Below, in pieces: positions 1,955 to 64,000 of a stretch of 64,000 nucleotides of DNA. Position 1 is the first letter of the stretch; each line of letters opens with the position of its first letter. The notes beneath the pieces are model-generated. The model was not told the origin of the DNA. It did no database searches and saw nothing but the letters and a program-made list of their open reading frames with translations. The translations under genes were made by a program, and so were the position numbers. The DNA is from Methanoculleus oceani (GTDB taxonomy: Archaea; Halobacteriota; Methanomicrobia; Methanomicrobiales; Methanoculleaceae). The stretch spans positions 1 to 64,000 of the forward strand of contig NZ_QFDM01000002.1 of assembly GCF_023702065.1 (NCBI RefSeq), given 5' to 3'.

Positions 1955-2112
1955 GTGCGACGTTCCGGTAGGAACGACTGTCCGCAGGATGCGATGGCCC
2001 GCAGGGCCGGAGCTTGAGAAACCCGAAGGGTTTCGGACAGGAGTTCGAGAAGCCATCAGGCTTCGAGGAACGGAGCTTGAGAAAACCTGGAGGGTTTTCG
2101 AGTTGCGACTGC
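1955..2112 (+). repeat. Chain of short hairpins with constant linkers
   Basis: The 1453-2244 interval has no supported gene. Within it lies a run of small palindromes: CGTTCC-GGTA-GGAACG (1961-1976), GGCCC-GCA-GGGCC (1996-2008), AAACCC-GAA-GGGTTT (2019-2033), AAGCC-ATCA-GGCTT (2050-2063) and AAAACC...GGTTTT (2082-2098). The last three are each preceded by a nearly constant 10-mer, GGAGCTTGAG (2009, 2072) or GGAGTTCGAG (2040), giving a 31-32 bp period. TGCGAC or GCGAT precede the other stems. A plus-strand TATATAAA at 1673-1680 has no clear gene downstream. Confidence 0.75.
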
Positions 2113-2750: not shown

Positions 2751-3080
2751 CTACTCCAGGGTCCGGGACAGGAGTTGCCTTTTCAGTGCCGGCAGGTCAT
2801 GTTCGACCATGTTCCAGACAGCATCCCGGTCGATTCCGAAGTAGTGGTGGATGAGGATGTTTCTCATCCCGATGATGTCCGACCACGGGATACCCGGATT
2901 TGCAGTCCTGAATCCCGGAGAGATCCCCCGCACGGCTTCCCCGATGATCTGGAGATGATGGATAACCCAGACCTGTGCCATTTCGTCGTTGTAGAAGTAC
3001 TCACGGCCCCGGCCTGATACTCTTTCAATCCGGTCGATGGCTTCGATGATATCCAGTACCCGCTCGCGATCGTCTCTCAT
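2751..3080 (-). CDS. hepT: HepT-like toxin (DUF86)
   Basis: The 109-residue all-helical protein carries the HEPN RNase signature R-x4-H-x-Y (RNILIHHY), the active site of HepT. It is the second gene of a pair: its ATG overlaps the stop of the upstream nucleotidyltransferase gene by 4 bp (ATGA). In characterised HepT-MntA systems the antitoxin transfers AMP to the tyrosine of this motif to inactivate the toxin, and both key residues are present here. It is a paralogue of the gene at 8186-8539. Confidence 0.88.
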
Positions 3081-3379
3081 AGCGGCCGCGCTTCCCGCAA
3101 GACCCTTGAGCGGATACGTTCCCGGAGTCCCGCTTCTGTCACGACGTCGACCGGACGATCGAGCAGGAGGGATAGATCCATCGCAAGACCCCCCACGTCG
3201 AGAAGACTCCGGTCGGGGTCCAGGTCGATCAGGAGATCGATGTCGCTGTCAGCCCGGGCTTCGTTCCGTGCAACCGACCCAAAAACCCGGACGTTTTTTG
3301 CTCCCCTCCGGTGTGCGAGTGAGAGGATCTCGTCCCGTTTCTGGATAAGAAGGGTATAGATGTCGGTTCCCGGGTTCAT
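3077..3379 (-). CDS. mntA: MntA-like minimal nucleotidyltransferase antitoxin
   Basis: The 100-residue protein has the nucleotidyltransferase motif G-S-x10-D-x-D ([20 protein letters not shown]), with the two Asp that bind catalytic metal, and a later strand PVDVVTE that supplies the third carboxylate. It is the adenylyltransferase partner of the HepT toxin directly downstream (ATGA overlap). It resembles the protein at 7896-8189 along its full length. Confidence 0.9.
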
Positions 3380-7895: not shown

Positions 7896-8189
7896 ATGCC
7901 CGTCACACAGGATCTGATCCGGGAGAAGCGGTCCAGGATTCTCGCAATAGCCAGGCGGCACGGTGCCAGGAATCTGCGGGTCTTCGGGTCGGTCGCCCGG
8001 GACGAGGCGGGCCCGGAGAGCGATCTCGACCTTCTGGTGGAACTGGAGCAGGGCAGGAGCCTCCTCGACCATATTGCGCTCATCCAGGACCTGGAGGAGA
8101 CCCTTGGGTGCCGGGTGGACGTGGTGACGGAAACGGCGCTCAAGGAGCGGTACAAAAAGCGGATCCTCAAAGAGGCAGTACCGTTATGA
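7896..8189 (+). CDS. mntA: MntA-like minimal nucleotidyltransferase antitoxin (second copy)
   Basis: This 97-residue protein has G-S-x10-D-x-D in [20 protein letters not shown], and CRVDVVTE provides the third acidic residue. It resembles the MntA at 3077-3379 throughout (same length, same LRVFGSVAR core and RILKEAVPL-type end) but with many substitutions, so the two copies diverged long ago. It precedes hepT with an ATGA overlap. Confidence 0.9.
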   Translation: MPVTQDLIREKRSRILAIARRHGARNLRVFGSVARDEAGPESDLDLLVELEQGRSLLDHIALIQDLEETLGCRVDVVTETALKERYKKRILKEAVPL

Positions 8190-8539
8190 GGGACGGGATC
8201 GAGCGGCTCCTCGACATCCTGGAAGCAATCGAGGGGATTGAGCGGTATACGGTCCGGGGCAGGGATGCTTTTTTGCAGGACGAACTGGTGCAGGTCTGGA
8301 TGGTGTATCATCTCCAGATCATTGGGGAAGCAGCCTCACGTCTCCCCTCGAACCTGCGAAACACTTCTCCCGGGGTTCCCTGGAAACAGGTAATCGGTCT
8401 TCGAAATATCCTGGTTCACGCATACTTCCGCGTGGACCCTGAGGAGGTCTGGGCGGTCGTGGACCACGATATCCCCGCACTCAGGGCGGAAGTCGTGGCG
8501 CTCCTCTCTTTGCTCGGCGGCACAGGAGACGCCGGGTAG
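8186..8539 (+). CDS. hepT: HepT-like toxin (second copy)
   Basis: The 117-residue HEPN protein has the R-x4-H-x-Y motif as RNILVHAY. The start at 8186 is fixed by the 4-bp ATGA overlap with mntA and by alignment with the HepT at 2751-3080 (both begin MRDxxER). The overlapping frame that begins at 7886 is the mntA gene read out of frame. The two modules are in opposite orientation 4.5 kb apart. Confidence 0.9.
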   Translation: MRDGIERLLDILEAIEGIERYTVRGRDAFLQDELVQVWMVYHLQIIGEAASRLPSNLRNTSPGVPWKQVIGLRNILVHAYFRVDPEEVWAVVDHDIPALRAEVVALLSLLGGTGDAG

Positions 8540-26171: not shown

Positions 26172-26396
26172 CCGTACAGTGGACCGTGGGGATATCGCCA
26201 CTGGGGGAGGGGCTGACGGGGAGGGGGGAGCATCCCCCCTCCCCTGTCTCTACCTTGTACGCGGGCATCTGTAACCCCCACCCCGCCCGGCCTCCGGCCT
26301 CCTCCTCCGCACCTGCGGTGCTCAAACTCCCGCCGTCCGCTACGCTCCCGGCAGTCGTTCCCCGCCCCTTGGGGCGGGGGCAGTGCGTGGCGATAT
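26172..26396 (+). repeat. Dispersed GC-rich repeat, copy B
   Basis: The left end CCCGTACAGTGGACCGTGGG runs into GATATCGCCACTGGGGGAGG, a GGGGAGGGGGG/CCCCCCTCCCC hairpin, the block CCCCCACCCCGCCCGGCCTC, GCACCTGCGGTGCTCAAACT, a GC-rich hairpin (CCGCCCC-TT-GGGGCGG) and the right end GTGCGTGGCGATAT. It fills most of the 26077-26701 gap between lhr and the TBP gene. GTGGCGATAT is the inverted complement of ATATCGCCAC at the left end. Frames across it show no protein-like composition. Confidence 0.8.
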
Positions 26397-49774: not shown

Positions 49775-50051
49775 GGGGTTTCCTATCTGTTGTACTGGGA
49801 TTGGGGGCGGTGGAGGAAAAAGGGTTGTGATACGGCGCGTTCCTGGGCCCGGTTGTTAAGTGGCTTGCCTTTTGAATTCGTGCTCTGGGAAGGGCATTAG
49901 CCGGGTGCAGATGCGAATGTGGCGATCATTGGCCTGACTGACGGAGATGCGGGAGCTCTCCGGCAGAGGCATTTTGGGTGACCTCCATGGTAGGGCAAGC
50001 ATTTTTGATGGAGAAATAGTCGGATAGGCAGAAGTTGCCACAAATCCCGAT

Positions 50052-50259
50052 CTAGTGGACCGTGGGAATATCGCCACTGGGGGCGGGGCTGACGGGGAGG
50101 GGGCATGCCCCCTCCCCTGTCTCTACCTTATACTCAGACATCCGTAACCCCCACTCCGCCCGCGCTCCGCGCTCCTCATTCGCACCTTCGGTGCTCGAAC
50201 TCCTGCCGTTCCGGCAGTCGTTCCCCGCCCCCGGGGGCGGGGGCAGTGCGTGGCGATAT
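50052..50259 (+). repeat. Dispersed GC-rich repeat, copy D
   Basis: The copy starts AGTGGACCGTGGGAATATCGCC, has the hairpin GGGGAGGGGG-CATG-CCCCCTCCCC, CGCACCTTCGGTGCTCGAAC and GCCGTTCCGGCAGTCGTTCC, and ends GTGCGTGGCGATATG. A further hairpin (GGCCGAAGGGC, GAGCAGGAG linker) trails to about 50300. It sits in the 49775-50457 gap between the MFS and Nfn genes; the flanking 270 bp at 49775-50051 shows no gene. Confidence 0.8.
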
Positions 50260-50457
50260 GCGACTGGCCGAAGGGCAGGAGCAGGAGAAGAGCTTAGACA
50301 TTGGACTGGTAATGGACGGAACGTCCGGAGCACGAGCCCTGGAGGTGCGCAGTCCGATGGAACTCCGTTGATGGCTGGTCTGAACACCAAACAGCGTTAA
50401 GCGGTCTCGTATCAAACCCGGGCACCATCAGCCCCGGGCCAACCCCGAAAAAAGTAA

Positions 50458-51801
50458 TTATTCTTCCTTTAACATCGCGTTGATCGCTGCCGCCGCACGC
50501 TTCGCCGAGCCCATCGCCTCGATAACCGTCGCTGCGCCGGTGGCGATATCCCCGCCGGCGTAAACGTGGTGGATGGACGTCCGGCCGTTCTCGTCGACGG
50601 CGACGTTGCCCTTCCGCCCGCGCTCGAGCCCCGGGATCAGGGAGACGAGGAGCGGGTTCGGGCTCGTGCCGATCGCCTGGATAACCATGTCCACGTCGAG
50701 GGTGAACTCGCTCCCCTCGATCGGCTCCGGGGATGCGCGGCCGCTTGCATCGATGCCGCAGAGGGACATCTTCACGCACTCGATCCCTGTGACGCACTGC
50801 TCGCCGAGGATCCGGGTCGGGTTCGTGCAGGTGAAGAACTCGATCCCTTCCTCCTTTGCATGCAGAACCTCGGCCTTCCGTGCCGGCATCTCCTCCTCGC
50901 CCCGCCGGTAGATCAGGGAGACCTTCGCACCCAGGCGGCGCGCCACCCTTGCGGAGTCCATCGCGACGTTGCCGCCGCCGATGACTGCCACGCGGGCTCC
51001 GTGCAGGACCGGCGTATCGAACTCCGGAAACGCGTCGGCGTGCATCAGGTTCACCCTCGTGAGGAACTCGTTCGCCGAGTAGACGCCGTTTAAGTTCTCC
51101 CCGGGAATGCCCATGAACGCGGGAAGCCCCGCCCCGGTCGCGAGGAAGACCGCATCGTAGCCGAGGAGTTCGTCCGTGCCGACGCTCCTCCCCACGAGAT
51201 GGTTCTTCTTTAACCGGGCACCGAGAGCGAGCACCTGGTCGATCTCCGCCCTGACGACCTCCTTTGGAAGCCTGAACGCGGGGATGCCGTAGGTCAGGAC
51301 ACCGCCGGCCTCGTGGAGCGACTCGAAGATCGTGACGGCGTGGCCGGCACGGGCGAGCTCGGCCGCAGCCGTCAGTCCCGCCGGGCCGGACCCCACGACC
51401 GCCACCCGCTTCCCGGTCGACTTCGCCGTCTCGGGCAACTCGGGGTCGTTCTCCCGCTCCCAGTCGGCCACGAACCTCTCGAGCGCGCCGATCCGGATCG
51501 GGGTCTCCTTGTTGCCGAGGATGCAGACGCCCTCGCACTGCGTCTCCTGCGGGCAGACCCGCCCGCAGATGGCCGGAAGCATGTTCTGCTCCTTGAGCGC
51601 CCGTGCGGCCGCGGGGAAGTTGCCTTCCGCGACCTCCCGGACGAATGCCGGAATATCGATGCAGACCGGGCAACCCTTCACGCAGAGCGGCTTTTTGCAC
51701 TGCAGGCACCGTTCCGCCTCGGCGATCGCCTCTGCGGGGGAGAGGCCGGTATCGACCTCCTTGAAGTCGCGGACCCGAACGTCGGCCGGCCGGTCACTCA
51801 T
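50458..51801 (-). CDS. NfnB/SudA-like NADPH oxidoreductase (glutamate-synthase small-chain type)
   Basis: The 447-residue flavoprotein has the N-terminal double [4Fe-4S] region (CLQCKKPLCVKGCPVCIDIP, CGRVCPQETQCEGVC), FAD motif VAVVGSGPAGLTAAAELA and NAD(P) motif VAVIGGGNVAMDSARVA, ending YAGGDIATGAATVIEAMGSA. With the overlapping upstream gene it forms an NfnAB-like complex that bifurcates electrons between ferredoxin, NADH and NADPH, useful for making NADPH in a methanogen. Start at 51801 because the upstream residues precede the conserved SDRPADVRVRDFKEV. Confidence 0.92.
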   Translation of the reverse strand: MSDRPADVRVRDFKEVDTGLSPAEAIAEAERCLQCKKPLCVKGCPVCIDIPAFVREVAEGNFPAAARALKEQNMLPAICGRVCPQETQCEGVCILGNKETPIRIGALERFVADWERENDPELPETAKSTGKRVAVVGSGPAGLTAAAELARAGHAVTIFESLHEAGGVLTYGIPAFRLPKEVVRAEIDQVLALGARLKKNHLVGRSVGTDELLGYDAVFLATGAGLPAFMGIPGENLNGVYSANEFLTRVNLMHADAFPEFDTPVLHGARVAVIGGGNVAMDSARVARRLGAKVSLIYRRGEEEMPARKAEVLHAKEEGIEFFTCTNPTRILGEQCVTGIECVKMSLCGIDASGRASPEPIEGSEFTLDVDMVIQAIGTSPNPLLVSLIPGLERGRKGNVAVDENGRTSIHHVYAGGDIATGAATVIEAMGSAKRAAAAINAMLKEE

Positions 51802-52645
51802 GGTGGTGGCCCCCTTCGCTGCACCGGCACCGGTGCTCCGCAAACCGCTCGAGCGAGGCCTTCTCCTGTCCGGTGTAGATCCGCTGCCGCTGCATCAGTT
51901 CGGCAAAGTCGACCTGATGGGCGTCGAACTCGGGGCCGTCGACGCAGGCGAACTTCGTCTCCCCGGCGACGGTCACCCGGCAGGAGCCGCACATCCCCGT
52001 CCCGTCGACCATGATCGGGTTGAGGCTCACGTAGGTCTTCACGCCGTAGGGGACCGTCGCGCCGGAGGTCACCTTCATCATGATGGCGGGGCCGACGATC
52101 CAGACCCGGTCGATCGTCTGCTCCTCGAGCAGTTTCTTCAGGACGTCGGCTGCAAACCCGTGGACGCCCTTGCTCCCGTCGTCGGTCGTGATATGGAGTT
52201 CGTCGCAGGTCTCACGCATCTCGTCCTCGAGGATGAGGAGATCGGCGTTCCGGGCCCCGATGATGCCGATGACGCGGTTGCCCGCACTTTTCAGTTCCTT
52301 TGCGATGAGGGGCGTGCTTGCGATCCCGACACCGCCGCCGATGACGCAGCAGGTCCCGTAGTTCTCGATCTCGCTCGGCTTTCCGAGCGGTCCCACGACG
52401 TCCTTGATGCTGTCGCCTGCATGGAGCGTCGCAAGCTCCTCGGTCGTCTTCCCGACGGTCATGAAGATCACCCGGACGGCGTCTCCCCTGACCGCGGAGA
52501 TGGTGAGCGGTATCCGCTCGCCCGCGTCGTGCAGGCGCAGGATGACAAACTGGCCCGCCCGTGCGTGCTGCGCCACCTGCGGCGCACGTATCCAGTATTC
52601 GTAAACCCGGTCGGCGAGTCTGGTCGCTGATTCTATCTTATACAA
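51794..52645 (-). CDS. NfnA/SudB-like ferredoxin-NAD(P)+ reductase subunit, TTG start
   Basis: The 283-residue protein has an FNR-type FAD domain (AGQFVILRLHDAGERIPLTI), an NAD domain (VIGGGVGIASTPLIAKEL) and a C-terminal [2Fe-2S] site (DGTGMCGSCRVTV...CVDGPEF) as in NfnA. TTG at 52645 is chosen: AGGAGTGA lies 5 nt upstream and the product then starts MYKIESATRLADRVYEYWI, matching the M-Y-K-I start of the family. A GTG three codons earlier overlaps the ribosome-binding site and is less likely. Overlaps the NfnB gene by 8 bp. Confidence 0.92.
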   Translation of the reverse strand: MYKIESATRLADRVYEYWIRAPQVAQHARAGQFVILRLHDAGERIPLTISAVRGDAVRVIFMTVGKTTEELATLHAGDSIKDVVGPLGKPSEIENYGTCCVIGGGVGIASTPLIAKELKSAGNRVIGIIGARNADLLILEDEMRETCDELHITTDDGSKGVHGFAADVLKKLLEEQTIDRVWIVGPAIMMKVTSGATVPYGVKTYVSLNPIMVDGTGMCGSCRVTVAGETKFACVDGPEFDAHQVDFAELMQRQRIYTGQEKASLERFAEHRCRCSEGGHHHE

Positions 52646-52833
52646 CCGCTTCACTCCTGATGATGTTGGTCGTCTCAACGTCAAAATACATCTAACGCTT
52701 CGTACATATTGTGACTCCTGCCTCTTTACTGCAGCTACTCGACCTTGAACACTACCCCGGGGCCGACGTACCAGGAATGGATCCGGAGTAAAAAACGCGA
52801 ACGATTATCCATTAATCCATCATATGGATAGGT

Positions 52834-53010
52834 ATGCGGAGCCAGGTAATCTGGGGGATTGCCCTGACCGCCATCGGCGCGGCGATCACGGCCATAGCGA
52901 TCTTGGTGCTCCCGTTCCTCCTCATATACGGCGTCCCGCTCATCGCGATCGGCCTCGCGCTGATCATCTGGAAGGGGCGCGAGGAGACCATCGAAGCAAT
53001 CAAGGAGTGA
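52834..53010 (+). CDS. Small two-helix membrane protein (58 aa)
   Basis: The frame from ATG 52834 encodes 58 residues: a hydrophobic helix (VIWGIALTAIGAAITAIAIL), a second (LPFLLIYGVPLIAIGLALII) and a charged tail (WKGREETIEAIKE). The next gene, a YbjQ/UPF0145 protein, begins 3 bp after its stop, so the two are co-transcribed. The family is not recognised. Confidence 0.75.
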   Translation: MRSQVIWGIALTAIGAAITAIAILVLPFLLIYGVPLIAIGLALIIWKGREETIEAIKE

Positions 53011-53013
53011 ACA

Positions 53014-53337
53014 ATGATACTGACGACGACTGAAGAAGTGCCGGGTTACGCCGTGGGAGAGGTCCTCGGCGTGGTCTTCGGCAACACGGTACGGACGAAG
53101 AACGTGGGAAAAGACGTCATGGCCGGGCTAAAGAGTCTCGTCGGCGGCGAACTCGAGGAGTACACCTCAATGCTCGCCGACGCCCGGACCGAGGCATACA
53201 ACAGAATGGTCAACGCCGCGCGCGACCTCGGGGCCGATGCCGTGGTGAACATCCGGTTCGCGACGTCCCAGACGATGTCGACCGCGGCGGAACTACTCGC
53301 CTACGGGACGGCGGTGAAGCTCGTTCCGAGGAAGTAA
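53014..53337 (+). CDS. YbjQ/UPF0145 (heavy-metal-binding-like) protein
   Basis: The 107-residue protein matches UPF0145: LTTTEEVPGYAVGEVLGVVF, GNTVRTKNVGKDVMAGLKSL, VGGELEEYTSMLADARTEAY and GADAVVNIRFATSQ. The family forms pentamers of unknown function and is often called a heavy-metal-binding domain protein, though no Cys or His cluster is seen here. It forms a two-gene unit with the small membrane protein. Confidence 0.92.
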   Translation: MILTTTEEVPGYAVGEVLGVVFGNTVRTKNVGKDVMAGLKSLVGGELEEYTSMLADARTEAYNRMVNAARDLGADAVVNIRFATSQTMSTAAELLAYGTAVKLVPRK

Positions 53338-53528
53338 GGGTTTTTTTGGATTAGCGGCAGGGGATCCTGCCTTTCTTTTTTGATTGGGGCTCGCGTGGCT
53401 GGTTAAGTCTTTCGAAGGCACGTGATGCGCAGTGGGCGTGGTCTCTCCTTTGAATGGAACTCCTAAGTTAGACTGTGGGATATCAACTTTGCAATGAGTG
53501 ACTATTGAAACTTTAGAACGGTGAAAAG

Positions 53529-53789
53529 CCCCGTACACTGGACCGTGGTGGATATCGCCACTGGGGGAGGGGCTGACGGGGAGTGCGAACGAGAGCGAGC
53601 TTGAGCACCGATAGGTGCGAGGGGGGGCGTGCCCCCCTCCCCTGTCCCTAACGCGTAGAGATCCACACTCCTCGTAGCCCCCACCCCGCCCGGCCTTCGG
53701 CCTCCTCCTCCGCACCTTCGGTGCTTAAACTCCTGCCGTTCCGGCAGTCGTTCCCGGCCCCCTGGGGCGGGGGCAGTGCGTGGCGATAG
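53529..53789 (+). repeat. Dispersed GC-rich repeat, copy E (with inserted hairpin unit)
   Basis: The left end CCCGTACACTGGACCGTGG is followed by GATATCGCCACTGGGGGAGG. A hairpin unit (GAGCTTGAG-CACC-GATA-GGTG-CGA, about 53598-53622) interrupts the GGGGAG...GGGGGG stem region seen uninterrupted in other copies. The right half has GGCC-TTC-GGCC, GCACC-TTC-GGTGC, GCCG-TTC-CGGC and the end GTGCGTGGCGATAG. It lies between the YbjQ and arcS genes, which converge. Confidence 0.8.
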
Positions 53790-53814
53790 CCGCTGGAAAT
53801 CCGTCACGGGTTTA

Positions 53815-53915
53815 TGCAACTGACGAAAGTTTGAGTGTCGCAGACGCGAAAGATACGTTCTGCGACGCTAAGTTTGAGCGCCGCAAAGAGCGAGCCCGGA
53901 GGGATCGAAGCCCCC
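53815..53915 (+). repeat. Hairpin chain adjoining repeat copy E
   Basis: AGTTTGAG precedes the stem GTCGCAGA (53837-53844)/TCTGCGAC (53859-53866), and a second AGTTTGAG (about 53871) follows with CGCCGCAAAGAGCGAG. It has the same linker-stem logic as the chains at 2.0 and 26.4 kb, with diverged linkers. Confidence 0.55.
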
Positions 53916-53924
53916 CGGTCTCAC

Positions 53925-55556
53925 CTAAAACTTCTGCGTCTTCCTCACCCGCACCGCAACCCCGCGCTTCGACCGGAGCATCTCGTCCGCTCCCATCATC
54001 GCCCGCCCGGTGGCGATCGCGAGCGGCCCTTCCACCAGCACCTCGTCGCCCTCCCGTATCCGGGGGTCGCAGCCCGTGATCCCCGGGGCGAGGACATCGC
54101 CCTGCGGCACGAACGCGTCGATCCTGACCCGGTACCCCTCCGGTATCATCCGCCACCCATCGAACGTCGGGCGGAAGAGCCCGGTCCCGGGGTCGATGCT
54201 GAAGAGCTGCTGCTTCCCCCGGAGCACCGCCATCTGCATGCTTCTGCCCCGGATCTGGAGCCCTTTCGTGTTGATATCCGTCGCGAACTGCCAGGAGACC
54301 GTGCCCCGGATGGTGTCGGTCTGCACCCGCCGCTCGCCTGCAAGAGCGTCGTTGAGCGCCCGGAGCGAGCCCGGCGACGTCGGGTGCCCCTGGCAGGTCA
54401 CCTCGAGGTCGAACCCGCAGGCCTCCGCCGCCATCTCCGCGACGGTGAGCGCTCCGCCCTCGAGGTGGGCGATCACCCTGCGGTAGGGGTGCGCGGCGAA
54501 GTAGCGTGCCAGAATGTCGGCGATGAAGGCGCACTCCTCGCGGTCCCAGTAGCCGGTCACCGGCACGTCGTAGTGGCCCGCCGGATAGACCCGCTCGAGT
54601 TCCCGGGGCACGAGGCCGAGCGGCGAGGTGACGATCAGTTCGTGCGCCCGCCGGTCCACCGTGTTCACAAAGAGCCGGTGGCTCCGGGAGAGCGAATAGG
54701 GCTTCCTCGCCGAGCAGGGGAGGAGGACCGCGACGTCGGTCCGGGTCGGGATGAACCGCTCGATCACCCGATCGGCGAACCGCCGGATCTCTGAGCGGTT
54801 CTGCGACTCGGCGGTGGTGGCAAGCATCGGCACCGCACGCGCCACCGGGAGGAAGCGCTCCATAAGAGCGTAGTTCCGGTCGAGGAACCGGAGGATGCCC
54901 ACCTGTGCGGCGTCCGCGCGGCACCGGGACTCCATCAGCTCCCGGAGCCTTCCGGCCTCGATGTAGTGCCGCACAAGGGCGATCTCGCGGTCCAGTGCCA
55001 GGCGGTTGTGCCGCTTGAGGTCGCCGTCCCGGCAGCCTTCGCACCCGCAGACCCCGGTCTCCATCAGCGAGGCGGGGAACTCTCCCTCCGGCAGACAGAA
55101 CCTCTTCTGCGCGGAGGCAAGGTCGACGGCCCGGTAATCGAAGAGGTCGAATCCCGAGTAGACGAGGAGGCAGGCGGTCGAGGGGAGCGCCGAGGCCGGG
55201 GCGTACCACGCGGTGTCCGGCGGGATGCTCTCTTTTAAGGTGGCAAGCCACGTCGCGTAGCTCCGGGGGTTTTTGAGTGTCGTATGCCAGTTTGCGACCA
55301 GGGCGCAGTCGCCGGATTCCGCCTTCGGCGGGGCGAGCGGGTGGATCGTCACCGGCTGCCCCTCCCCAGGAGAGAAGTAATTGCTGACGAATGCGGGGTC
55401 CGCGGAGAGCGGGACGTTCGAGAGAGGCCGCTCGCGGAGTGCCGGGAAGAGGGTGTCCGTATCGAGCGCGGCCGGGAGGGATACGCTCCTCTCTTCGTGC
55501 TCGTAGGTTCCTATCCGCGCAAGGCCGTCGCGCTTCCCCGCCTCATACCTGCTCAC
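53925..55556 (-). CDS. arcS: Archaeosine synthase ArcS
   Basis: The 543-residue TGT-like protein has the ArcS signature [18 protein letters not shown], a CGCEGC zinc-type motif in the middle, and a C-terminal PUA domain ([40 protein letters not shown]). It converts preQ0 at tRNA position 15 toward archaeosine after TGT action. The GTG start at 55556 is preceded by GGAGGTG at 4-nt spacing and overlaps the tgtA stop by 14 bp, so the two consecutive enzymes are translationally coupled. Confidence 0.92.
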
Positions 55557-56994
55557 GGCACACCTCCGCATCCGGGACCTCTTCGAGGACGAGGCGCGTC
55601 CACTCTTCGCCGCACCGGACGGCAAAGCGGCTCTCCGGGTGCGCTTCCATCAGGGCCCGGATCCCGGCGCATCCCGACCGGACCATATCGTCGTCCCACT
55701 CCGGGACCTCGCTCTGGCCTACCGGGAAGGTCTCCGCAAGTTCCACGGGGTAGGGGCCGAAGGGAGGCTTGAAGTTCAGCACCGTATCGAACCCGGGGAC
55801 CTGCCGCCCGTCGAACGAGACCAGCACCCGTTCCCCGAGGGAAATGCGGGGTATAACCTCGTGGAACCGGAGCACCTCCGTTCTCCGGCAGGTCTCCGAG
55901 CCCCGGTAGAAGAACCGGCGCTTGGAGACGGCATCGTCGCGCTCGAGTTCGGCCGCGTGGGCGAGGAGTTCCCGGTAGCCGTCGAGGAGGCGCGGATGGC
56001 TCCGGCACCGCTCGTCGACCAGCTCCCAGAGGGTCCCGTCCTGGATCGCCTGCCGGATGCGGGCGATCTCTGCAAGAGTGACGTGCAGGTTGTGGAGGGC
56101 GAGCAGCCGCTCCCGGTCTTTTGACTGCCGGAGCTCGTCGGCGGTCATCGAGCGGCAGACCCGGCAGGGGCAGGGAAGTTCCGCGAGTTCATCGATCTTG
56201 AGGCTCCCGTGCGGGGTGATATAACGCCCCTCCCGGGCGAAGAGGGCGTATGCGGCCGAGTCGAAGAGGTCGCAGCCCATCGCGACGGCGAGGGCGAACA
56301 TCGACGGGTGGCCCGCGCCGAAGAGGTGGACGGCGGTCGCCGGGGAGAGGCCGCGTTTCGCCGCGAGGACGACCTGCACGAGCTCCCGGTAGCGGTAACT
56401 CTCCATCAGCGGCACCACGGCGCCGATGGGAGCGAAGGTGAAGTCGAGGTCCTGGACGGCCCGTCCGGCCTCTTCGCGGAGATCGGTGAAGATACCGCCC
56501 TGCACCGGCGCTGCCAGGTTCGCGTCGGGGAAGAGTTGCCGGGCCTCCCGGATCCGGTCCATGGTGACCGCGAGTTCCCGTGCCGCCCTCTCGGGCCCTG
56601 CGTCCGGCGGGGTTGGGAGGTCCAGGGGGACGACGATATCGCTCCCGATCGCCTGCTGGAACTCGAGCGTGTCCCGGTTGCTCACCTCGACCTCCCCGTA
56701 GACGGAGAGCTGAAACGATCCCGAGTCGGTCATGACGACGCCGTCGAAGTCGAGGACCTTATGAAGCCCCTCCGCAATCGCCCGGTCGCGATACTCCGTG
56801 CTCCGCCTGAAGATGTAGGCGTTCGTGATCAGGGCCTCGACGCCCATCTCCTGCATCTCGCGGGGGGTTACCAGGGGAAGGTGGGGGTTGACGACCGGAA
56901 GGAGCGCAGGTGTCCGGACCGTTTTGTCGTTCACCCTGAGCCTGCCGACCCTTCCTGCGATATCTTTGTGTATGACCTCAAAAGTAATTGCCAT
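55543..56994 (-). CDS. tgtA: Archaeal tRNA-guanine(15) transglycosylase
   Basis: The 483-residue protein has catalytic motifs [10 protein letters not shown] (Asp), [20 protein letters not shown] and the zinc site CPCRVC with the following LHNLH, as in archaeosine TGT. It swaps guanine 15 of tRNA for preQ0. It lacks the C-terminal PUA domain of longer TgtA proteins; the PUA is on ArcS. The ATG at 56994 lies 5 bp after the AMMECR1 gene. Confidence 0.95.
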
Positions 56995-56999
56995 TCGGG

Positions 57000-57566
57000 T
57001 TAAACCGCCTTTTCTTCGAATATCTGCCCCTCGAAGGTCTGCACGGCGACATCGTCGCGCCTCCAGCACCCGGGCGAAAGCCCGGCCTTGACGCAGGTCT
57101 GGTCGAGGAACTCGCTGCTGGTCCAGCCGTACTCGGTCGGGACCTGCGGGAGGAGGAGGCCTCCGGTCCCGCGACCGGTGACGATCAGGCCGTGCTTCCC
57201 GACCTCGACGCAGCCGGGTCGCTCTGCCGGCGGGCACTCGAGCGGCCGGGGAAGCGTGAGCACCGTCACCTCGAGGTCGAGGTCGGCAAGTTCCGGCCGC
57301 GATACCGGCGGGAACCGGGGATCCTCGAGAGCCGCCGATACGGCCGCCTCGACGATTGCATCGCCGAGCGGTTTTATCGGGTACGGGAGGCCGATGCATC
57401 CGCGGAGACGCCCCTGTCGCTTGATCGTGACGAAGACGCCGCGCTTCTCCCCAAAAACAGGGGAGAGAGCGGGCAGCTCCATCCGTTCGCCGTCGACGGC
57501 TCTTTCGATGGCGCTCCGTGCCAGACGAACTGCCGTTCTGCCTTCTTCCGGGGTCAGCATTTCCAT
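57000..57566 (-). CDS. AMMECR1-domain protein
   Basis: The 188-residue protein has the AMMECR1 signature [20 protein letters not shown] and [27 protein letters not shown]. The family is widespread in archaea and eukaryotes, with an unknown and probably enzymatic or binding role. The start at 57566 (ATG directly after a TTG) fits a TATA-like element (TAAAAGTAT) about 30 nt upstream, so the mRNA is likely leaderless and also carries tgtA and arcS. Confidence 0.9.
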
Positions 57567-57595
57567 CAAAATGGGTCGTATGATATTGAATACTT

Positions 57596-58153
57596 TTAGT
57601 CTTTCTCAGGGGAAGAGGAAGCAAGAGCGTCGGCCGCAGGAACCCCGACCGGTCCGGTGATCGAGCAGGGTGCGTTGCCCTCGGGGCGCACCAGAACGGT
57701 CAGGTCCTCGCCCCGAGGGACGGGGCGGTCGAGGCGAAGCAGGATCATACACTCCTCCCCGGCCTCGAGGAGCATGCCGCCGTCACCGTCCCGGAGCGGT
57801 GCTGCCGACCACATCCCCGGTCCCGGATGGGGGTCTGCAGACAGCGTGAGAATCTCGAGGTAGGTACCTGCCATGACCGTCACGGTGGCCCGGGAGAGGT
57901 CGACTGGCCCGCCCTCTCCGGTATGGGCGACGCGGACGGCGAGGGTATCGATAGAGGTTTTGGAAAGTTCTCCGACCGGCGCAAGATGCGGTTCGCCTGC
58001 GGCCAGAACCGGGTATGCGCCCGGGCCGGGCAATTGCCCGGTGTCCATAGCGCTCGCCCCGAACGAGACGAGCGAGAAGAGTGTGGTGACGGCAACGAAC
58101 GCCGCGAAGATCGCCGCAAGCTCCAGGTGTGTACAGGCCTCGCTCCCCCCCAT
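57596..58153 (-). CDS. Archaellin/pilin-like secreted protein
   Basis: The 185-residue protein has an N-terminal hydrophobic helix after a short leader ([20 protein letters not shown]), like class III signal archaellins (x-LEAAI/V-x-x-AFVVVAA). The C-terminal part is the archaellin-type beta domain ([40 protein letters not shown]). The prepilin peptidase recognition residues are not canonical and no archaellum genes are nearby, so it is an orphan. The ATG at 58153 lies ~10 nt after the predicted start from the TATA box at 58185-58191. Confidence 0.72.
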
Positions 58154-58184
58154 GGTAACGCCAATGGTAAGACCCGGGAACAAG

Positions 58185-58191
58185 TATATAA
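58185..58191 (-). promoter_or_regulatory. TATA box for the archaellin-like gene
   Basis: The minus strand reads TTATATA within ATAAACTTATATAC, centred 35 nt upstream of the ATG at 58153, giving a ~10-nt leader. Confidence 0.6.
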
Positions 58192-58290
58192 GTTTATCTG
58201 CCAGGCAGTATGCGCGGTCGATTCGGAAGCCTTCGCGGAGGGTCTGCAGTCCGGCCGTCGAAGGCCGGCCCGGTCGGGGCATCCGCACGA

Positions 58291-58300
58291 GTATATATTC
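58291..58300 (+). promoter_or_regulatory. TATA box for RNase P RNA
   Basis: GTATATATTC is centred about 27-30 nt upstream of the predicted RNA 5' end near 58323. Confidence 0.65.
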
Positions 58301-58320
58301 TCTGCGTGGAATATTATATG

Positions 58321-58672
58321 GGAGAGGGAGAGTGCGGCCGACGGTGGCACTTCCTGTGCTGCTGAGGAAAGTCCTCCCACCGGCCAGATACGCAGCCGCA
58401 TGCAAGTGCGGGTGGCGAGAGTCACGGCAATGACACAGAAACGGCACGGCCCGCCGTCAGTGATGAAACGACCGAGCCCCCCGTTCAGGGGGGCGAGAGG
58501 CGCGGATTTCCGCGCAACTCGTTGAACGTAGCGGCGGGATACGATGAAACGGTGAATCCCTGCGGGTGCAAGCCAGAATAGGGCATATGGATCGTCTGGT
58601 ATCCGCCCAGGTATGGCGCGTAGCTGAATGCCGCACAGAACAGAAGGAGGCTTACTCCTCCCACTCTTCACT
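58321..58672 (+). ncRNA. rnpB: RNase P RNA (archaeal type A)
   Basis: Conserved regions of the ribozyme appear in order: CR-I GAGGAAAGTCC (58364-58374) just after a hairpin-forming 5' region, ACAGAAAC (about 58434), GGGTGCAAGCCAGAATAGGG (about 58561-58585) and CR-V ACAGAA...GGCTTAC (58635-58655). The ends pair as helix P1: GAGAGTG (58328-58334) with CACTCTT (58662-58668). Size (~350 nt) fits type A archaeal RNA. With Rpp proteins it cleaves the 5' leader of pre-tRNAs. Exact ends are uncertain by several nt. Confidence 0.93.
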
Positions 58673-58713
58673 ATTGCGAACTCTTCTCGATGGAACGCGT
58701 GTTTTACAGGATC

Positions 58714-58968
58714 TCAGTCTCCCTTCGGTTTCAGTTCGATCTCCTCGAACGTCACGACGTGTGAGTCGAAGATCTCGCCCCGGCTGTTCACGGAGAGCTG
58801 GACGAAGATCTCGGCGGGCGCATTCTCCATGGATACGACGTCACCGTGCTCCGCCCTGACATCGAAGCCGAGGGACTCCAGTTCGCTCCGGACGGCATCC
58901 CGGGTGTGGTAGGTCGAGAGGATCTCCCTGACCTTTGCGAGGATGTTCTGCTGCTCCTCCTTGGCCAT
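58714..58968 (-). CDS. Hypothetical acidic protein (84 aa)
   Basis: The product starts AKEEQQNILAKVREILSTYH, then predicts a mixed alpha/beta small domain (DAVRSELESLGFDVRAEHGD, IFVQLSVNSRGEIFDSHVVT). I recognise no family. It converges on rnpB and is divergent from the XRE-CBS gene. GGTTATATACC (58988-58998) sits about 25 nt upstream of the ATG, consistent with a leaderless message. Confidence 0.7.
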   Translation of the reverse strand: MAKEEQQNILAKVREILSTYHTRDAVRSELESLGFDVRAEHGDVVSMENAPAEIFVQLSVNSRGEIFDSHVVTFEEIELKPKGD

Positions 58969-59121
58969 ACCTCCTCATGCGCCCCGTGGTATATAACCCC
59001 TCCTTGAAGGTGCCCGGCGGGCCACAGTACCGCCATGGTCTTGCCGGTGCCCCGGCCCGGCATCGGTCCGGGAGCACCTTCGGGCAAATGTATAAGTGGA
59101 AAAATTACCTATAGTAATAAT

Positions 59122-59676
59122 ATGGAAATACCCACCCCGGCCGAGCTGCGGGAAAAAAGGCTCCGCATGGGCTTGAAGCAGGCGGATGTAGCCCGTATGG
59201 CCGGAATCAGCCAATCCATGGTCGCGCGGATCGAGGCCGGCAGCGTGGATCCGAGGGTGAGCACGCTTGCGAGGATCGTGGAAGTCCTGCGGGCAGCGGA
59301 GCACTCGGCAATCACGGCGGCCGACGTTATGAACGCACCCGTGCTCTCCGTTGCCCCGGACGACCCCGTCGGCCGGGCCGTCGAGATCATGGGCCACAAC
59401 GGCATCTCCCAGCTGCCGGTGCTGGAGAACGGGGTGCCTGTCGGGTGCATATCCGAATCCGCCATCATGAACGCCATGGAAGAAGGGGGGCTCCACCAGA
59501 CGCACCGGAAACTGGTGCAGGATTACATGGAACCCGGTTTCCCGACGGTTCCTCCGACGGCGCCCATCGATACGATCGTCCATCTCCTGCATCACAGCCA
59601 CGCGATCATCGTGCTCGAGAAAGGAAAGGTGCAGGGTGTCATCACCAAGCACGACCTGATATCGCTGATCACGTAG
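59122..59676 (+). CDS. XRE-type HTH regulator with CBS pair
   Basis: The 184-residue protein has an N-terminal helix-turn-helix (RMGLKQADVARMAGISQSMV ARIEAG) and two CBS motifs (about 68-120: MNAPVLSVAPDDPVGRAVEI; about 130-184: DYMEPGFPTVPPTAPIDTIV), which usually bind adenosine nucleotides or SAM. It is an energy- or ligand-sensing transcription factor. The start is chosen at the HTH; a TATA-like element (TGTATAAGTG) about 27 nt upstream suggests a leaderless mRNA. It is convergent with tpiA, 6 bp between stops. Confidence 0.9.
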   Translation: MEIPTPAELREKRLRMGLKQADVARMAGISQSMVARIEAGSVDPRVSTLARIVEVLRAAEHSAITAADVMNAPVLSVAPDDPVGRAVEIMGHNGISQLPVLENGVPVGCISESAIMNAMEEGGLHQTHRKLVQDYMEPGFPTVPPTAPIDTIVHLLHHSHAIIVLEKGKVQGVITKHDLISLIT

Positions 59677-59682
59677 ATTCTT

Positions 59683-60351
59683 CTAGAGCAGCGAGACCAG
59701 GTCCCGGAGAACCGCTTCGGGATCGTCGGCCTTGACCACGCTCGATGCCAACAGGACGCCGCAGGTCCCGAGATCGACGGCGATCTTCACGCATTCGCCC
59801 GACTGGATGCCCGCCCCGGTCAGGACTTTCACATCCGGGTTCACCGCCCGAACAGCGTTGACGGACCGCTCGATGATCCCCGGGTCGGCCTTCGAGACCG
59901 AGACCCCGCTCCCGATCAGCTCCGGGGGCTCGATCGCCACGTAGTCGGGACGGAGCGCTGCTGCCGCGGCGCTCGTCGCGTCGTTGTTCGTGCAGACGAC
60001 CGACTCGAGGTGGAGCCTCCGGGCGGCCTGAACGCAGGCGTCGATATCGGCCAGGGTGAGGCGGCGTTCGGAGTGGTTGATCAGGGTGCCGCGTGCGCCC
60101 GCCGACCTGACCGCTTCCGGGAGAATATGGCCTGTATGGGCGCCGGGAGCGATCGCATCGATATGCTGGGCGTAGACAGGGATCGCGTAGTGGTGGCTCA
60201 TCGGGTGAATTTCGGTGAAGACCGGCGCGATGCCGATGACGGCGCCGGTCTCTCTCGCCACGGTCTCGGCCGCAGCGGCGATCCGGTGAGCGTTGCTGCC
60301 CATACCCTCCTGATAGGTCTTGAGATTGACCAGAATGAACGGGGAATCCAT
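59683..60351 (-). CDS. tpiA: Triosephosphate isomerase (archaeal type)
   Basis: The 222-residue archaeal TIM has substrate Lys in LVNLKTYQ, catalytic His in NHSERR, Glu in [10 protein letters not shown] and the phosphate-binding end [20 protein letters not shown]. It interconverts DHAP and glyceraldehyde-3-phosphate in gluconeogenesis, which feeds glycogen synthesis. The ATG at 60351 has GAGGTA about 6 nt upstream; the ATG two codons earlier is too close to that site. Confidence 0.96.
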
Positions 60352-60511
60352 ATCCATTACCTCATAACAAGTAGATACATACTATATTTCCTTTACAAGC
60401 ATTCGCAAGACATTTGTGTAATTCATCATGGTGATGATAATACCTACGCACGATCTCGCTCACGGTGTTAAATCGTTAGATTAAACTCCCCATGCGATAA
60501 GCGTTTTTCAT

Positions 60512-60853
60512 ATGGGAAAAAAGCCTCATCATCATCACCACCATAGCAAAAAACGGAAACCGAGTCGCTCGACGCTCTCAAAAATTTACAGAAAGTTCGA
60601 ACGGTTCTCAGCGCACCACCCCATTGCTTCAGTTGGTCTGTACCTCTTTGCCTCGCTTATTCTCTTTAGAATCGCGCTCTTCGATCCTTCCTTCCGTATG
60701 CATACCCATCTCGATGAGTTCCATTTCTGGATTGCTGTCATAGCAATGATCATGGTTTTCGTTGCGCTGTTATCGGTTCGCGCATGGTGGAAGCGGCAGG
60801 TACCGGATTTCCACATCAAAGGAACTGGCGATATGACGTGGAAGAACCGATAG
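60512..60853 (+). CDS. Small membrane protein with natural His6 tract
   Basis: The 113-residue protein begins MGKKPHHHHHHSKKRK, a basic N-terminus with six consecutive His, followed by two hydrophobic helices (about 40-57 and 72-92) and a basic end. No family recognised. The His run could bind metal or be simple low complexity. Base composition is AT-richer than neighbours. A GATAAGCG/TTTTTCATATG context gives no clear ribosome-binding site. Confidence 0.65.
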   Translation: MGKKPHHHHHHSKKRKPSRSTLSKIYRKFERFSAHHPIASVGLYLFASLILFRIALFDPSFRMHTHLDEFHFWIAVIAMIMVFVALLSVRAWWKRQVPDFHIKGTGDMTWKNR

Positions 60854-60975
60854 ATGTTGATGAGAATATTCCCAAACTTCCTCTTCTCAGTACAGGTAGT
60901 TCGCATGAAAATTGTGGTTAAATTGGAACTGTGAGATTGTGTTCACTGACCTCCCGAATACGGAGTTCCGTCGGC

Positions 60976-61145
60976 TATCGCCACGCACTGCCCCCGCCCC
61001 CCGGGGCGGGGGAGGAGGCCGGAGGCCGGGTGGAGTGGGGGTTACACGCCTCCTTATAGAATGGAGACAGGGGAGGGGGGCATGCCCCCTCCCCGTCAGC
61101 CCCTCCCCCGCGTGGCGATATCCCCACGATCCAGTGTACCGGGCA
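60976..61145 (-). repeat. Dispersed GC-rich repeat, copy F (reverse orientation)
   Basis: On the plus strand it begins CTATCGCCACGCACTGCCCC and ends CGTGGCGATATCCCCACGAT plus CCAGTGTACCGGG, the inverted complement of the consensus left end CCCGTACACTGGACCGTGGG. Inside are GGAGGCCGGAGGCCGGG, GGGGTTAC and the GGGGAGGGGGG/CCCCCTCCCC hairpin. It is the shortest copy (~170 bp). The rest of the 60854-61372 gap shows no gene. Confidence 0.8.
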
Positions 61146-61372
61146 AGCCTGAGAAGAACCGCTCTGAAAGGAATGCACTACTTCTGCATCCGACGCCACG
61201 ATTTCCATTGATCGAGCCTGTGGTCGACGCGACCTCGGAGGCAGTTTGGAACGCCTTCACTACTAGGTCTGGGGAACGACGTTCCGTCATCAAAAGTACG
61301 CTGGTATTCCTGAACCCTGCTCTGTCTCGTGATCGGCAGGATAAGAAAATTTAGGAGAAACCTGGCGGAGGA

Positions 61373-63892
61373 TCACTCCTCAATCCCCCGGACGAAATGC
61401 CCGCCGGTGATGCCGCCGAGTGCCCGCCGTTTCACCTCGTCCTTGAGCGCCGAGAGAGTGCCGGGGTCCCGGTGACCCACGGCATCGATCCCCGCCCGGT
61501 AGAGGCGGGCCATATCCCCGGCGTAGCGCGGCCCCCGCCCCCGTGCGTCGATGGCGACGGCGTCGATGCCCATCCCGGCGATCCGGGGCAGGCGGTCGAT
61601 CAGGCAGGTCTCGACGGCGTTTGCGATGTAGGTCCTCCCCTCGCCGTCGCGCCGGACCGGGAAGACGCGGTTGTGCCCGTCCTGGAGGCCCAGGAACTCT
61701 TCCCCGGAGACCGCCGCCGCCAGCCGGTCCTCGGTCACCATCGCCTCGATGTTGCCCTGCACGAGCACCTCGAGTTCGGGGGTCTCCCCGACCGACTCCA
61801 CGAGCCGGGCCAGGTCGGCGCCCGGGAGTTCGGGGGATGCCGTGCACCGCAGGAAGAGCCCCGCCAGTTCCGCGACGGTGCGGTGGTTCCAGACGTTCAG
61901 CCCGGCGGCGCCATAAAGCCTCATGCGGGGTTCGGCCCGCCGCACCGCGTCCGCCGCGCCCATACCGCTCACCATCACCCCGCGGACGCCCGCCTCATAG
62001 AGCGACGGGAGGAGGGGAGTCGCAGCGTCGAGGAAGTTACGCCGGGTGATCGACGGCCATTTCCAGACAGGGTCCGCACCCCCCTCCCGGCAGACGGCGG
62101 CGGCCTCTTCCAGGATACCGGGGGTAGAAGACTCCAGGTAGACGGTCCGGGCCCCACCCCGGCCGGCGGCCTCCGCACCCTCGAGGGTATCGGTGTAGAC
62201 CGAGACCGACGGGAGCCGGGGTTCCCGGTGAGAACCTGCCGGGCGCTCCATCCCGGCAATCGCCGCATCGACCCGTTCGCGGGCCGCACGCACCGCATCC
62301 AGCCCCGGACGCCGTGCGGCGAGCACGGCCTCCTCGACTTTCTCTAAGAATGCTCGCCGGACCCGGTTCAACTCCCCGAGCGGCGCAAAGAGCCCGCCCG
62401 GGTAGCGGAGGTCCATCTTCCGGACCGTAAACGGCGTTCCCCCGGTCTTTGCAAGCTGCTCAGCGATCTGGTCCCGGGCAAGCGGCCGGCTCCTTGCCGG
62501 CTCCATCCGGAGGTCCGGCCGGTAGCGCACCCGGAGCGGTTTCCCGCCGGGGACGGGAACCGTCGCCTCCAGGCAGGGCGTGCCGTCCTCCCAGGCGACC
62601 GTCACGTCGATGGGCAACTGAGGAAGGGGCTTTTCCATGACCCGCTTTGCTCGCTCCTCGAGGTCGGCGCTCTTCGTCAGGAAGACCCGGGCGCCCTCTC
62701 CCACGGGCGCGGGGACCGAAAGTCGCACCATACCGTTGCGGACGGCGGGGGTGCCGCGGACGACCGCTCCCACGCCCTCGTCGGGGTCCTGTGTGCAGAA
62801 AGCCAGCCCGTCGCCGGAGCGGGGCGCGACGTCGCCGACGAGGCGCACGGTCGCCTCCTGCCGCCGCGGGTCGTAGCCAATGGCCGTGCCGAGCAGGACG
62901 CCCCGGTTGCCGGGCCGGTCGCGGGCCATGATATCGGGAGCGCCGAGGAGGTAGCCCTCCGTGAACTCCCGGTTGAACGCGAGCGCAAGGTCCCGCATAT
63001 CCTCCCGCGAGGGGGACCAGGCCTCCCCGGCGGCGATCGCGTCGAGGGCACGCCGGTAGATGCTCACCACGGTGGCGACGTACTCCGCCGAGCGCATCCT
63101 CCCCTCGATCTTGAGCGACGCCACCGGTGAACGCGCGAGGAGGTCGAGGCGTGGATATACACAGAGATCGCGTGTCGAAAGCAGGTAACGGTCCTCTCCG
63201 GGCACAACACGGAGGTCTTTTGGGCGCCCAAAATCGTCCTTCCCGGCGACCACGAGCAGGTAGGGTTTCCGGCACGGCTGGGCGCACATCCCGCGGTTCC
63301 CGCTCCGCCCCCCGATGACCGAGGAGAGGAGGCACTGGCCTGAGTAGCAATAGCAGAGCGCACCGTGGGCAAAAACCTCGATGCCGACTTGCCGTGCCTC
63401 CGCGTCCCCGGCGATCCCCTCGATCTCCGCGAGGGTGAGTTCCCGCGCCAGCACCACGCGGGAGAACCCCTCCCTTGCGGCCCGGGTCACACCTTCGCGG
63501 TTGTGAACCGTCATCTGGGTCGAGGCATGAAGGGGGAGGTCCGGGACCACCTCCCGGGCAAGCGACGCCACCCCGGCGTCCTGCACCAGGACGGCATCGA
63601 CCCCGGTCTCGTAGAGCCGGAGGAGGTAACGCGCCGCGTCGGGGAGTTCGGTGTCCCGGACAAGGGTGTTGACGGTGACATAGACCCTGACTCCCCGGAG
63701 GTGTGCATAATCGACGGCGGAGCGGAGTTCCTCGTCGGAGAAGTTCGCCGCGTAATGCCGGGCCCCAAACCGTCTCCCGGCTAGGTAGACGGCGTCGGCG
63801 CCGGCGGCGACTGCTGCGGCCAGGGCCTCCGGCGACCCGGCCGGCGCAAGCAGTTCCGGCGACCCGGATCCCTGGTGGTGTTCGTGCGGCAT
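61373..63892 (-). CDS. U32 peptidase-family protein with DUF3656 (RlhA-like)
   Basis: The 839-residue protein has the U32 N-terminal barrel (PELLAPAGSPEALAAAVAAG, ADAVYLAGRRFGARHYAANF) and the Cys cluster region (GALCYCYSGQCLLSS, CAQPCRKPYLL) that binds an iron-sulfur centre in RlhA/TrhP-type members. DUF3656 and a further U32 domain follow. Characterised relatives hydroxylate a cytidine in 23S rRNA or uridine in tRNA, so an RNA modification role is more likely than proteolysis. A TATA box at 63921-63928 gives a very short leader. Confidence 0.9.
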   Translation of the reverse strand: MPHEHHQGSGSPELLAPAGSPEALAAAVAAGADAVYLAGRRFGARHYAANFSDEELRSAVDYAHLRGVRVYVTVNTLVRDTELPDAARYLLRLYETGVDAVLVQDAGVASLAREVVPDLPLHASTQMTVHNREGVTRAAREGFSRVVLARELTLAEIEGIAGDAEARQVGIEVFAHGALCYCYSGQCLLSSVIGGRSGNRGMCAQPCRKPYLLVVAGKDDFGRPKDLRVVPGEDRYLLSTRDLCVYPRLDLLARSPVASLKIEGRMRSAEYVATVVSIYRRALDAIAAGEAWSPSREDMRDLALAFNREFTEGYLLGAPDIMARDRPGNRGVLLGTAIGYDPRRQEATVRLVGDVAPRSGDGLAFCTQDPDEGVGAVVRGTPAVRNGMVRLSVPAPVGEGARVFLTKSADLEERAKRVMEKPLPQLPIDVTVAWEDGTPCLEATVPVPGGKPLRVRYRPDLRMEPARSRPLARDQIAEQLAKTGGTPFTVRKMDLRYPGGLFAPLGELNRVRRAFLEKVEEAVLAARRPGLDAVRAARERVDAAIAGMERPAGSHREPRLPSVSVYTDTLEGAEAAGRGGARTVYLESSTPGILEEAAAVCREGGADPVWKWPSITRRNFLDAATPLLPSLYEAGVRGVMVSGMGAADAVRRAEPRMRLYGAAGLNVWNHRTVAELAGLFLRCTASPELPGADLARLVESVGETPELEVLVQGNIEAMVTEDRLAAAVSGEEFLGLQDGHNRVFPVRRDGEGRTYIANAVETCLIDRLPRIAGMGIDAVAIDARGRGPRYAGDMARLYRAGIDAVGHRDPGTLSALKDEVKRRALGGITGGHFVRGIEE

Positions 63893-63920
63893 CTGCTTCG
63901 TACCGTTCGTCCCGCCGGCC

Positions 63921-63928
63921 TATATACT
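63921..63928 (-). promoter_or_regulatory. TATA box for the U32-family gene
   Basis: The minus strand reads AGTATATA, centred 32 nt upstream of the ATG at 63892, giving a predicted leader of about 5 nt. Confidence 0.6.
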
Positions 63929-64000
63929 CCACCCAGGTGAAAGCGGGTATCTTTTTGGGAGAGAGAGTGATGTGAAGAGGAGGCCTGGAGTATGGATTGT

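Follow-up and report, generated by a model that had tools for sequence, protein, structure and literature searches.

The question raised by this intergenic locus is whether a hairpin unit that splits one arm of a large palindromic repeat arrived there recently and, if so, how such short units move. The repeat in question, copy E, belongs to a large dispersed family in a Methanoculleus genome of 2,455,266 bases in three contigs, and occupies positions 53530–53811 (plus strand) of the window—the whole 64,000-nucleotide stretch of DNA analysed here. It sits between convergent reading frames, a plus-strand frame ending near 53338 and a minus-strand frame ending at 53925, which we take to be ArcS. 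Its outer ends (CCCGTACACTGG... and ...TGGAAATCCGTCACGGGT) form imperfect inverted repeats; about 30–40 relatives exist in its own genome, and the same element is found at the orthologous place in three close relatives (G018, G031, and G029).

A hairpin unit splits one arm of a palindrome

The first palindrome of the large repeat is expected to read GGGGAGGGGGG...CCCCCCTCCCC. In copy E the G-rich arm is split: its outer half, GGGGA, lies at 53578–53582 (placed by sequence and fold) and its inner half, GGGGGGG, at 53621–53627, where it pairs with the C-rich arm in folds. Across a CGTG loop follows the complementary C-rich arm CCCCCCTCCCC (53632–53642), which is unbroken, and since this arm is complementary across the insertion point, the uninterrupted palindrome is taken to be the older design. 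All these parts are on the plus strand, as is the intervening segment GTGCGAACGAGAGCGAGCTTGAGCACCGATAGGTGCGA at 53583–53620. A preliminary description had put a linker–stem unit of about 43 bp between GGGGA and the G-run. The segment is indeed there, albeit slightly smaller at 38 bp, with boundaries ambiguous by 2–3 nt because GA/GAG stands at both ends. Its two parts are likewise as described, namely the linker GAGCTTGAG (53597–53605, plus strand; linker-plus-stem pattern match at 53597–53609) and stem B, CACC-GATA-GGTG (53606–53617, plus strand), recovered by stem search and fold.

The unit reads GTGCGA...GGTGCGA on one strand and TCGCACC...TCGCAC on the other. DNA and RNA folds of copy E keep the outer and inner stem halves paired, with the unit as side branches; the unit's first stem is weak, the DNA fold giving it two pairs. 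A second member of the same hairpin family occupies another point of the element, site 2, at 53707–53750 on the minus strand; its linker is GAGTTTAAG and its aligned length 44 bp.

Close relatives carry the empty allele

We aligned copy E with its orthologous loci, the check that the preliminary description had suggested. Identity was 93.0% over 914 aligned columns with G018 and 93.9% over 960 with G031, in the same orientation, and in G018, G031, and G029 alike the orthologous place holds this large repeat too, with no unit at the site and GACGGGGA^GGGGG unbroken. Because the same large repeat stands there uninterrupted, the alignments indicate that the unit of copy E is a derived, recent, and precise gain. 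The large repeat occupies this place (L185–L212; window 53340–53925) in many Methanoculleus genomes and in both orientations; the genome under study, G018, G031, and G029 have it as in the window, most others reversed.

An intergenic haplotype tree, built by hand from alignment site patterns at the locus, reads (((own,G031),G018),G029), with 13 patterns shared by our genome and G031 and none shared by our genome and G018 alone. On this tree, site 1—the point split in copy E—needs one gain versus three losses, and the ArcS gene tree gives the same count. The 44-bp unit at site 2 is present in our genome and G031 and not in G018 or G029, and G029 carries a third, different unit in the left outer stem of its element; together, the three unit sites require three gains or six losses on the intergenic tree by manual count. 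The ArcS gene tree pairs our genome with G018, and since this conflicts with the intergenic tree, the intergenic DNA at the locus has probably recombined between species.

Such apparent recombination of intergenic haplotypes, and the dispersal and likeness of the large repeats, would favour replacement of copy E as a whole by recombination with a unit-bearing copy, the unit itself never having moved. Yet to the left and right of the unit, CGTG loop and CTAACGCGTAGAGATCC spacer included, copy E matches its own orthologues, and we consider wholesale replacement highly improbable.

Differences by whole units recur elsewhere. Thirty alignments of copies with relatives were tried, of which seven were good (at least 83% identity over at least 370 columns); the other 23, below 83% identity or 370 columns, were left out, among them an apparent 58-bp difference at C1:279k. 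Six of the seven good orthologous pairs differ by whole units, and in both directions. Copy E differs at two sites from G018 and at one from G031; the 26-kb copy and the copy at C2:89.9k differ from their orthologues by 55 bp and 57 bp, respectively, each at site 2; at C1:567k our genome has 45 bp at site 2 and G018 instead 32 bp at site 1; and at C3:59.5k a 128-bp three-unit cassette stands at site 1 in our genome only, the G018 orthologue lacking it and differing as one block. The seventh pair, at the 61-kb copy, differs by a 14-bp repeat only. Differences in both directions imply that gains and losses have both occurred, or gains in both lineages.

Occupied and empty copies within one genome

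A loose-pattern search for site 1 returned 34 places in the genome; removal of three chance matches left 31 copies with a clear site (GGGGCTGACGGGGA^), of which 13 are occupied by one or more units and 18 empty, one empty copy lying in a noisy contig end. An additional occupied copy at C3:39.4k, with another unit just upstream, failed the left-arm filter and fell outside the 31. The earlier statement that other copies are uninterrupted therefore holds for the four other full-site copies in the window (GGGGA ending at 26222, 36929, 50098 and, on the minus strand, 61090) and fails genome-wide. The preliminary description had named presence of the unit in most genomic copies as the sign of loss elsewhere rather than insertion here; the 13 of 31 occupied copies and the empty allele in close relatives speak for insertion.

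Site-1 inserts are single units of 37–47 bp or three-unit cassettes of 127–129 bp, the insert at C2:152853 not being bounded on its 3′ side. In all 13 occupied copies the insert begins with GTGCG right after GGGGA and has its linker strand on the G-rich strand, a strand relation kept at C3:140557, where the right-arm site lies on the other strand. The units found in these copies are of non-homologous kinds—singles of E's type, the GAGCTCGACCACC type, and three-unit cassettes—and the cassette of C3:59.5k recurs with identical unit order at three other loci of the genome. An exact-pattern scan of genome contigs placed the large-repeat core in many Methanoculleus records among the matches listed. 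Sixty-two sites in 58 loci of Methanoculleus and related archaea comprised, among the matches listed, 39 empty, 18 occupied, 4 cut off, and 1 odd; the 14 fully bounded inserts from named species among the matches listed all have a 5′ GTGCGA.

These occupancy data also bear on the idea that units were present ancestrally and have been lost repeatedly through slippage at the short GAG repeats on either side of each hairpin. Hairpins bounded by short direct repeats are readily deleted, as is well known, and the 18 empty copies fit this scheme. Against it stand the counts on the trees (three losses versus one gain at site 1, six versus three over the three sites), the non-homology of the units in occupied copies, and the split G-rich arm facing an intact C-rich arm, and we regard repeated loss as an improbable account.

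In genome G000, the ends of C1 and C3 and both the start and the end of C2 lie in or beside copies of the large repeat, and at the ends of C1 and C3 the sequence trails off into noisy tracts of G and C, which suggests that the hairpins interrupt assembly.

The unit belongs to a genus-wide hairpin family

The units share one architecture over some 32–58 bp. Two stem-loops, the second often CACC-GNNA-GGTG, are joined by a GAGYNYGAG linker and bounded by G(T)GCGA on the 5′ side and by CGA(G) on the 3′ side. The loci examined in our genome hold 89 distinct units. The linker-plus-stem pattern GAGCWYGAGCACC had 51 matches in this genome versus none for its reversed control, which argues against chance. 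Across 120 genomes of the order, with controls at 0 to 2, matches were found in 21 of 22 same-genus genomes (ours included), reaching 104, and counts outside the genus were near control except in one genome. The family is thus abundant in most Methanoculleus genomes, genus-wide. The sole clear exception outside, G119, from another genus of the same taxonomic family, has 28 matches versus 0 for the control.

Pairing was assessed with a wider linker, GAG[CT][AT][CT][AG]AG, and a second stem defined as perfect and of at least 4 bp. Such a stem follows 94 of 160 linker contexts in our genome and 69 of 161 in relatives (shuffled, 0 and 0), a first stem accompanies 55 and 37 (shuffled, 7 and 5), and both stems of at least 4 bp occur in 43 of 160 and 28 of 161. 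Stem sequences vary with pairing kept: 13 different second stems and 23 first stems in our genome. At least 82 of its 94 second-stem loops have G as their first base and A as their last (GAA, GTTA, GGA, GCA, GTA, GTCA, and others); such asymmetry suggests that the structure forms on one particular strand. An Rfam scan of window positions 50000–64000 found no family at the repeat, its sole match above the gathering score being RNaseP_arch; the archaeal RNase P RNA gene lies at 58322–58666 (209 bits).

Units also live apart from the large repeat

INDEPENDENCE from the large repeat, many units stand in arrays with no large repeat nearby. The array at C2:423k is shared, judged by eye, by our genome, G031, G025, and G018, with differing unit numbers and stems, and is not seen in G028 or G029; at C2:184k, also by eye, our genome has an array and G018 none, and G031 and G028 have the large repeat there. 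Units are further nested within the hairpins of other units at L080, L153, L332, L140, and around window positions 1986–2034. At this last place the unit lies inside the other unit's stem-loop (CTGTCCGCA^GGACAG), and L095 has the empty counterpart. A perfect 11+11 nt empty site at another locus exists for 92 of the 288 distinct units in the loci examined; with the windows moved by 60 nt the figure is 14 of 288, a control above zero because arrays are dense. In Methanoculleus chikugoensis, CGCGAA and GCCGCGAAGG flank a precisely placed unit of E's type; only a few of the surrounding bases match site 1, and a G027 locus provides the uninterrupted counterpart.

A second palindromic repeat family exists in the genus (TCACGCGAAGCCGCGAAGG...; L132 5080–5230, L193, and L195), and it is the M. 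chikugoensis copy of this family, unrelated to the large repeat, that holds the unit of E's type. A further inverted repeat pair in the window (2935–3085 and 8181–8331; 151 nt, 71% complementary) is spaced about 5 kb apart.

Stand-alone arrays, nesting, and fixed elements differing only by units all bear out the original proposal that hairpin units move or expand independently of the large repeat. One qualification applies: as E's unit type is found in this genome only at site 1, its spread within the genome may hinge on landing in the large repeat.

How units move

Our preferred reading, which we hold to be somewhat better than evenly supported, is that copy E received a recent and precise insertion of a short mobile unit and that gains at site 1 are mostly copied from like sites. 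Units land at a few preferred points of the larger palindromic repeat (site 1: GGGGA^GGGG), form arrays elsewhere, and nest. Sites with and without units, the constancy of the insertion point and of orientation, and nesting are observed directly; beyond these, we infer a copying route in which most gains at site 1 would derive from another unit-bearing copy of that site, through recombination or replication template switching anchored on short common flanks (GACGGGGAG ... GAGGGGG); hairpins would stall or prime synthesis during copying, and occasional moves to new targets would need another, separate step.

Copying between like sites is favoured by the confinement of E's unit type (GCGAGCWYGAG) to site 1 in this genome, where all ten occurrences are site-1 inserts—six first units and four cassette members, the latter assigned by hand (script label 'other'). 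It is also favoured by the recurring cassette order at site-1 copies and by the greater likeness of units at the same site than at different sites (0 of 2000 permutations as extreme).

Several observations weigh on the other side. No exact donor of E's unit was found among the matches listed, the closest of them being one mismatch away, in Methanoculleus sp. FWC-SCC3. To the right of the insert, both copy E and the C3:59.5k cassette continue with the orthologue's sequence rather than a donor's, so any conversion tract ended within the G-run of 5–7 nt; ordinary gene conversion should sometimes carry flanks, and the unchanged flanks therefore count against its simple form. So does the E-type unit of M. 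chikugoensis in its CGCGAA / GCCGCGAAGG setting. The conflict between the intergenic and ArcS trees and the weak first stem of E's unit likewise count against our preferred reading.

Unaltered sequence beside the inserts would suit site-preferring transposition, in which a candidate enzyme acting in trans recognizes single-stranded hairpins and inserts them precisely, like IS200/IS605-type enzymes. Constant unit ends (the 5′ GTGCGA of the 14 bounded inserts from named species, among the matches listed), fixed orientation, precise empty sites, and the E-type unit inserted in the unrelated M. chikugoensis repeat are in line with it too. The transposase search, which covered the Y1 class (PF01797), argues otherwise: PF01797 is not found in our genome, G018, or G031, and occurs in 7 of 35 genus genomes, of which G010 and G030 have 1 and 0 pattern matches, respectively, while genomes without it have up to 104. 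Nor is there a clear target motif. We judge transposition unlikely, though a more serious contender than repeated loss.

Three specific candidates were rejected. A Y1 transposase as mover is not supported, given its absence from the three genomes and a presence in the genus that does not track unit number. Targeting of hairpin loops lacks support as well, a loop or loop edge marking the insertion point in 13 of 60 distinct targets versus 13–26 at shifted positions, and an A^G target motif, at 25 of 60 distinct targets versus 10–21 at shifted positions, is not convincing.

We accordingly rank recombination or template switching anchored in very short flanks first and a candidate enzyme second, as proposed routes rather than demonstrated ones. 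A broader and more tentative possibility, on which we place less weight than on the insertion itself, is that archaeal hairpins of less than 60 bp, with no enzyme of their own, spread during replication through copying guided by their structure: template switching from one hairpin to another with like flanks would let each landing site keep its own unit lineage and would produce nested hairpins. If true, this would be mobile DNA that owes its spread to the replication machinery of the host.

Comparison with known systems

By analogy, the nearest known kinds would be the REP elements of bacteria and the double-hairpin elements of mitochondria. REP elements are short intergenic hairpin repeats with RAYT (Y1) transposases. 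In outline, REP, REPIN, and BIME elements resemble our units in being short intergenic hairpin repeats, tens to hundreds in number, that form mosaics and tandem arrays; the units differ in residing in an archaeon and in being nested in a larger repeat and in one another. A palindrome of 20–40 bp in many intergenic copies, a REP feature, is found here (51 pattern matches, the intergenic position having been read for E). The Y1/RAYT transposase is not, with 0 matches to PF01797 in our genome, G018, and G031, and the terminal tag GTAG or CGTC is at neither end of E's unit; units whose first stem starts with CG read CGTC on the minus strand, which makes the tag's status across the family less clear. 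As to miniature elements derived from IS200/IS605, the fixed site 1 in the large repeat contrasts with 60 distinct targets overall that lack a clear motif, and GA/GAG at both unit ends leaves 2–3 nt of the boundaries ambiguous. As to MITEs, E's unit has no long terminal inverted repeat, its ends sharing GTGCGA as a direct rather than an inverted repeat.

The literature covered on Methanoculleus and on archaeal palindromic, REP, or miniature repeats, thin for subscription journals and hence weak as evidence of absence, held no account of the unit or its mobility. Within the genus, Table 2 of PMC6749651 lists the Methanoculleus marisnigri tandem repeats Fam_48_45_4 and Fam_102_51_3, of 45 and 51 nt, reported there as satellites only; their size is that of our tandem units, and by this comparison of length alone they may be arrays of the hairpin unit.

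Two adjacent stem-loops as one mobile unit with occupied and empty alleles, a feature of double-hairpin elements, are present here by analogy, E's own first stem being weak. As outlined in PMC4478555, the GC clusters of mitochondrial DNA, in fungi and elsewhere, are very short, GC-rich, hairpin-forming, patchy between relatives, merging, and non-coding; small size, GC-richness, hairpins, patchiness, merging, and lack of coding capacity are what our unit appears to share with them and with double-hairpin elements, although these reside in organelle DNA and are likened by description, no sequence relation being expected. Hairpin repeats that invade intergenic regions are similarly outlined for sponge mitochondria (PMC2800124), in a different type of genome and with different sequences. 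Methanogen intergenic hairpins would be a fast-changing, assembly-breaking layer, not conserved regulatory RNA—a warning for their interpretation. Before-and-after alleles in close relatives, as described here, make it testable how elements below 50 bp move where a recognizable transposase is lacking, a question that the GC clusters of mitochondria and many palindromic repeats of bacteria raise as well.
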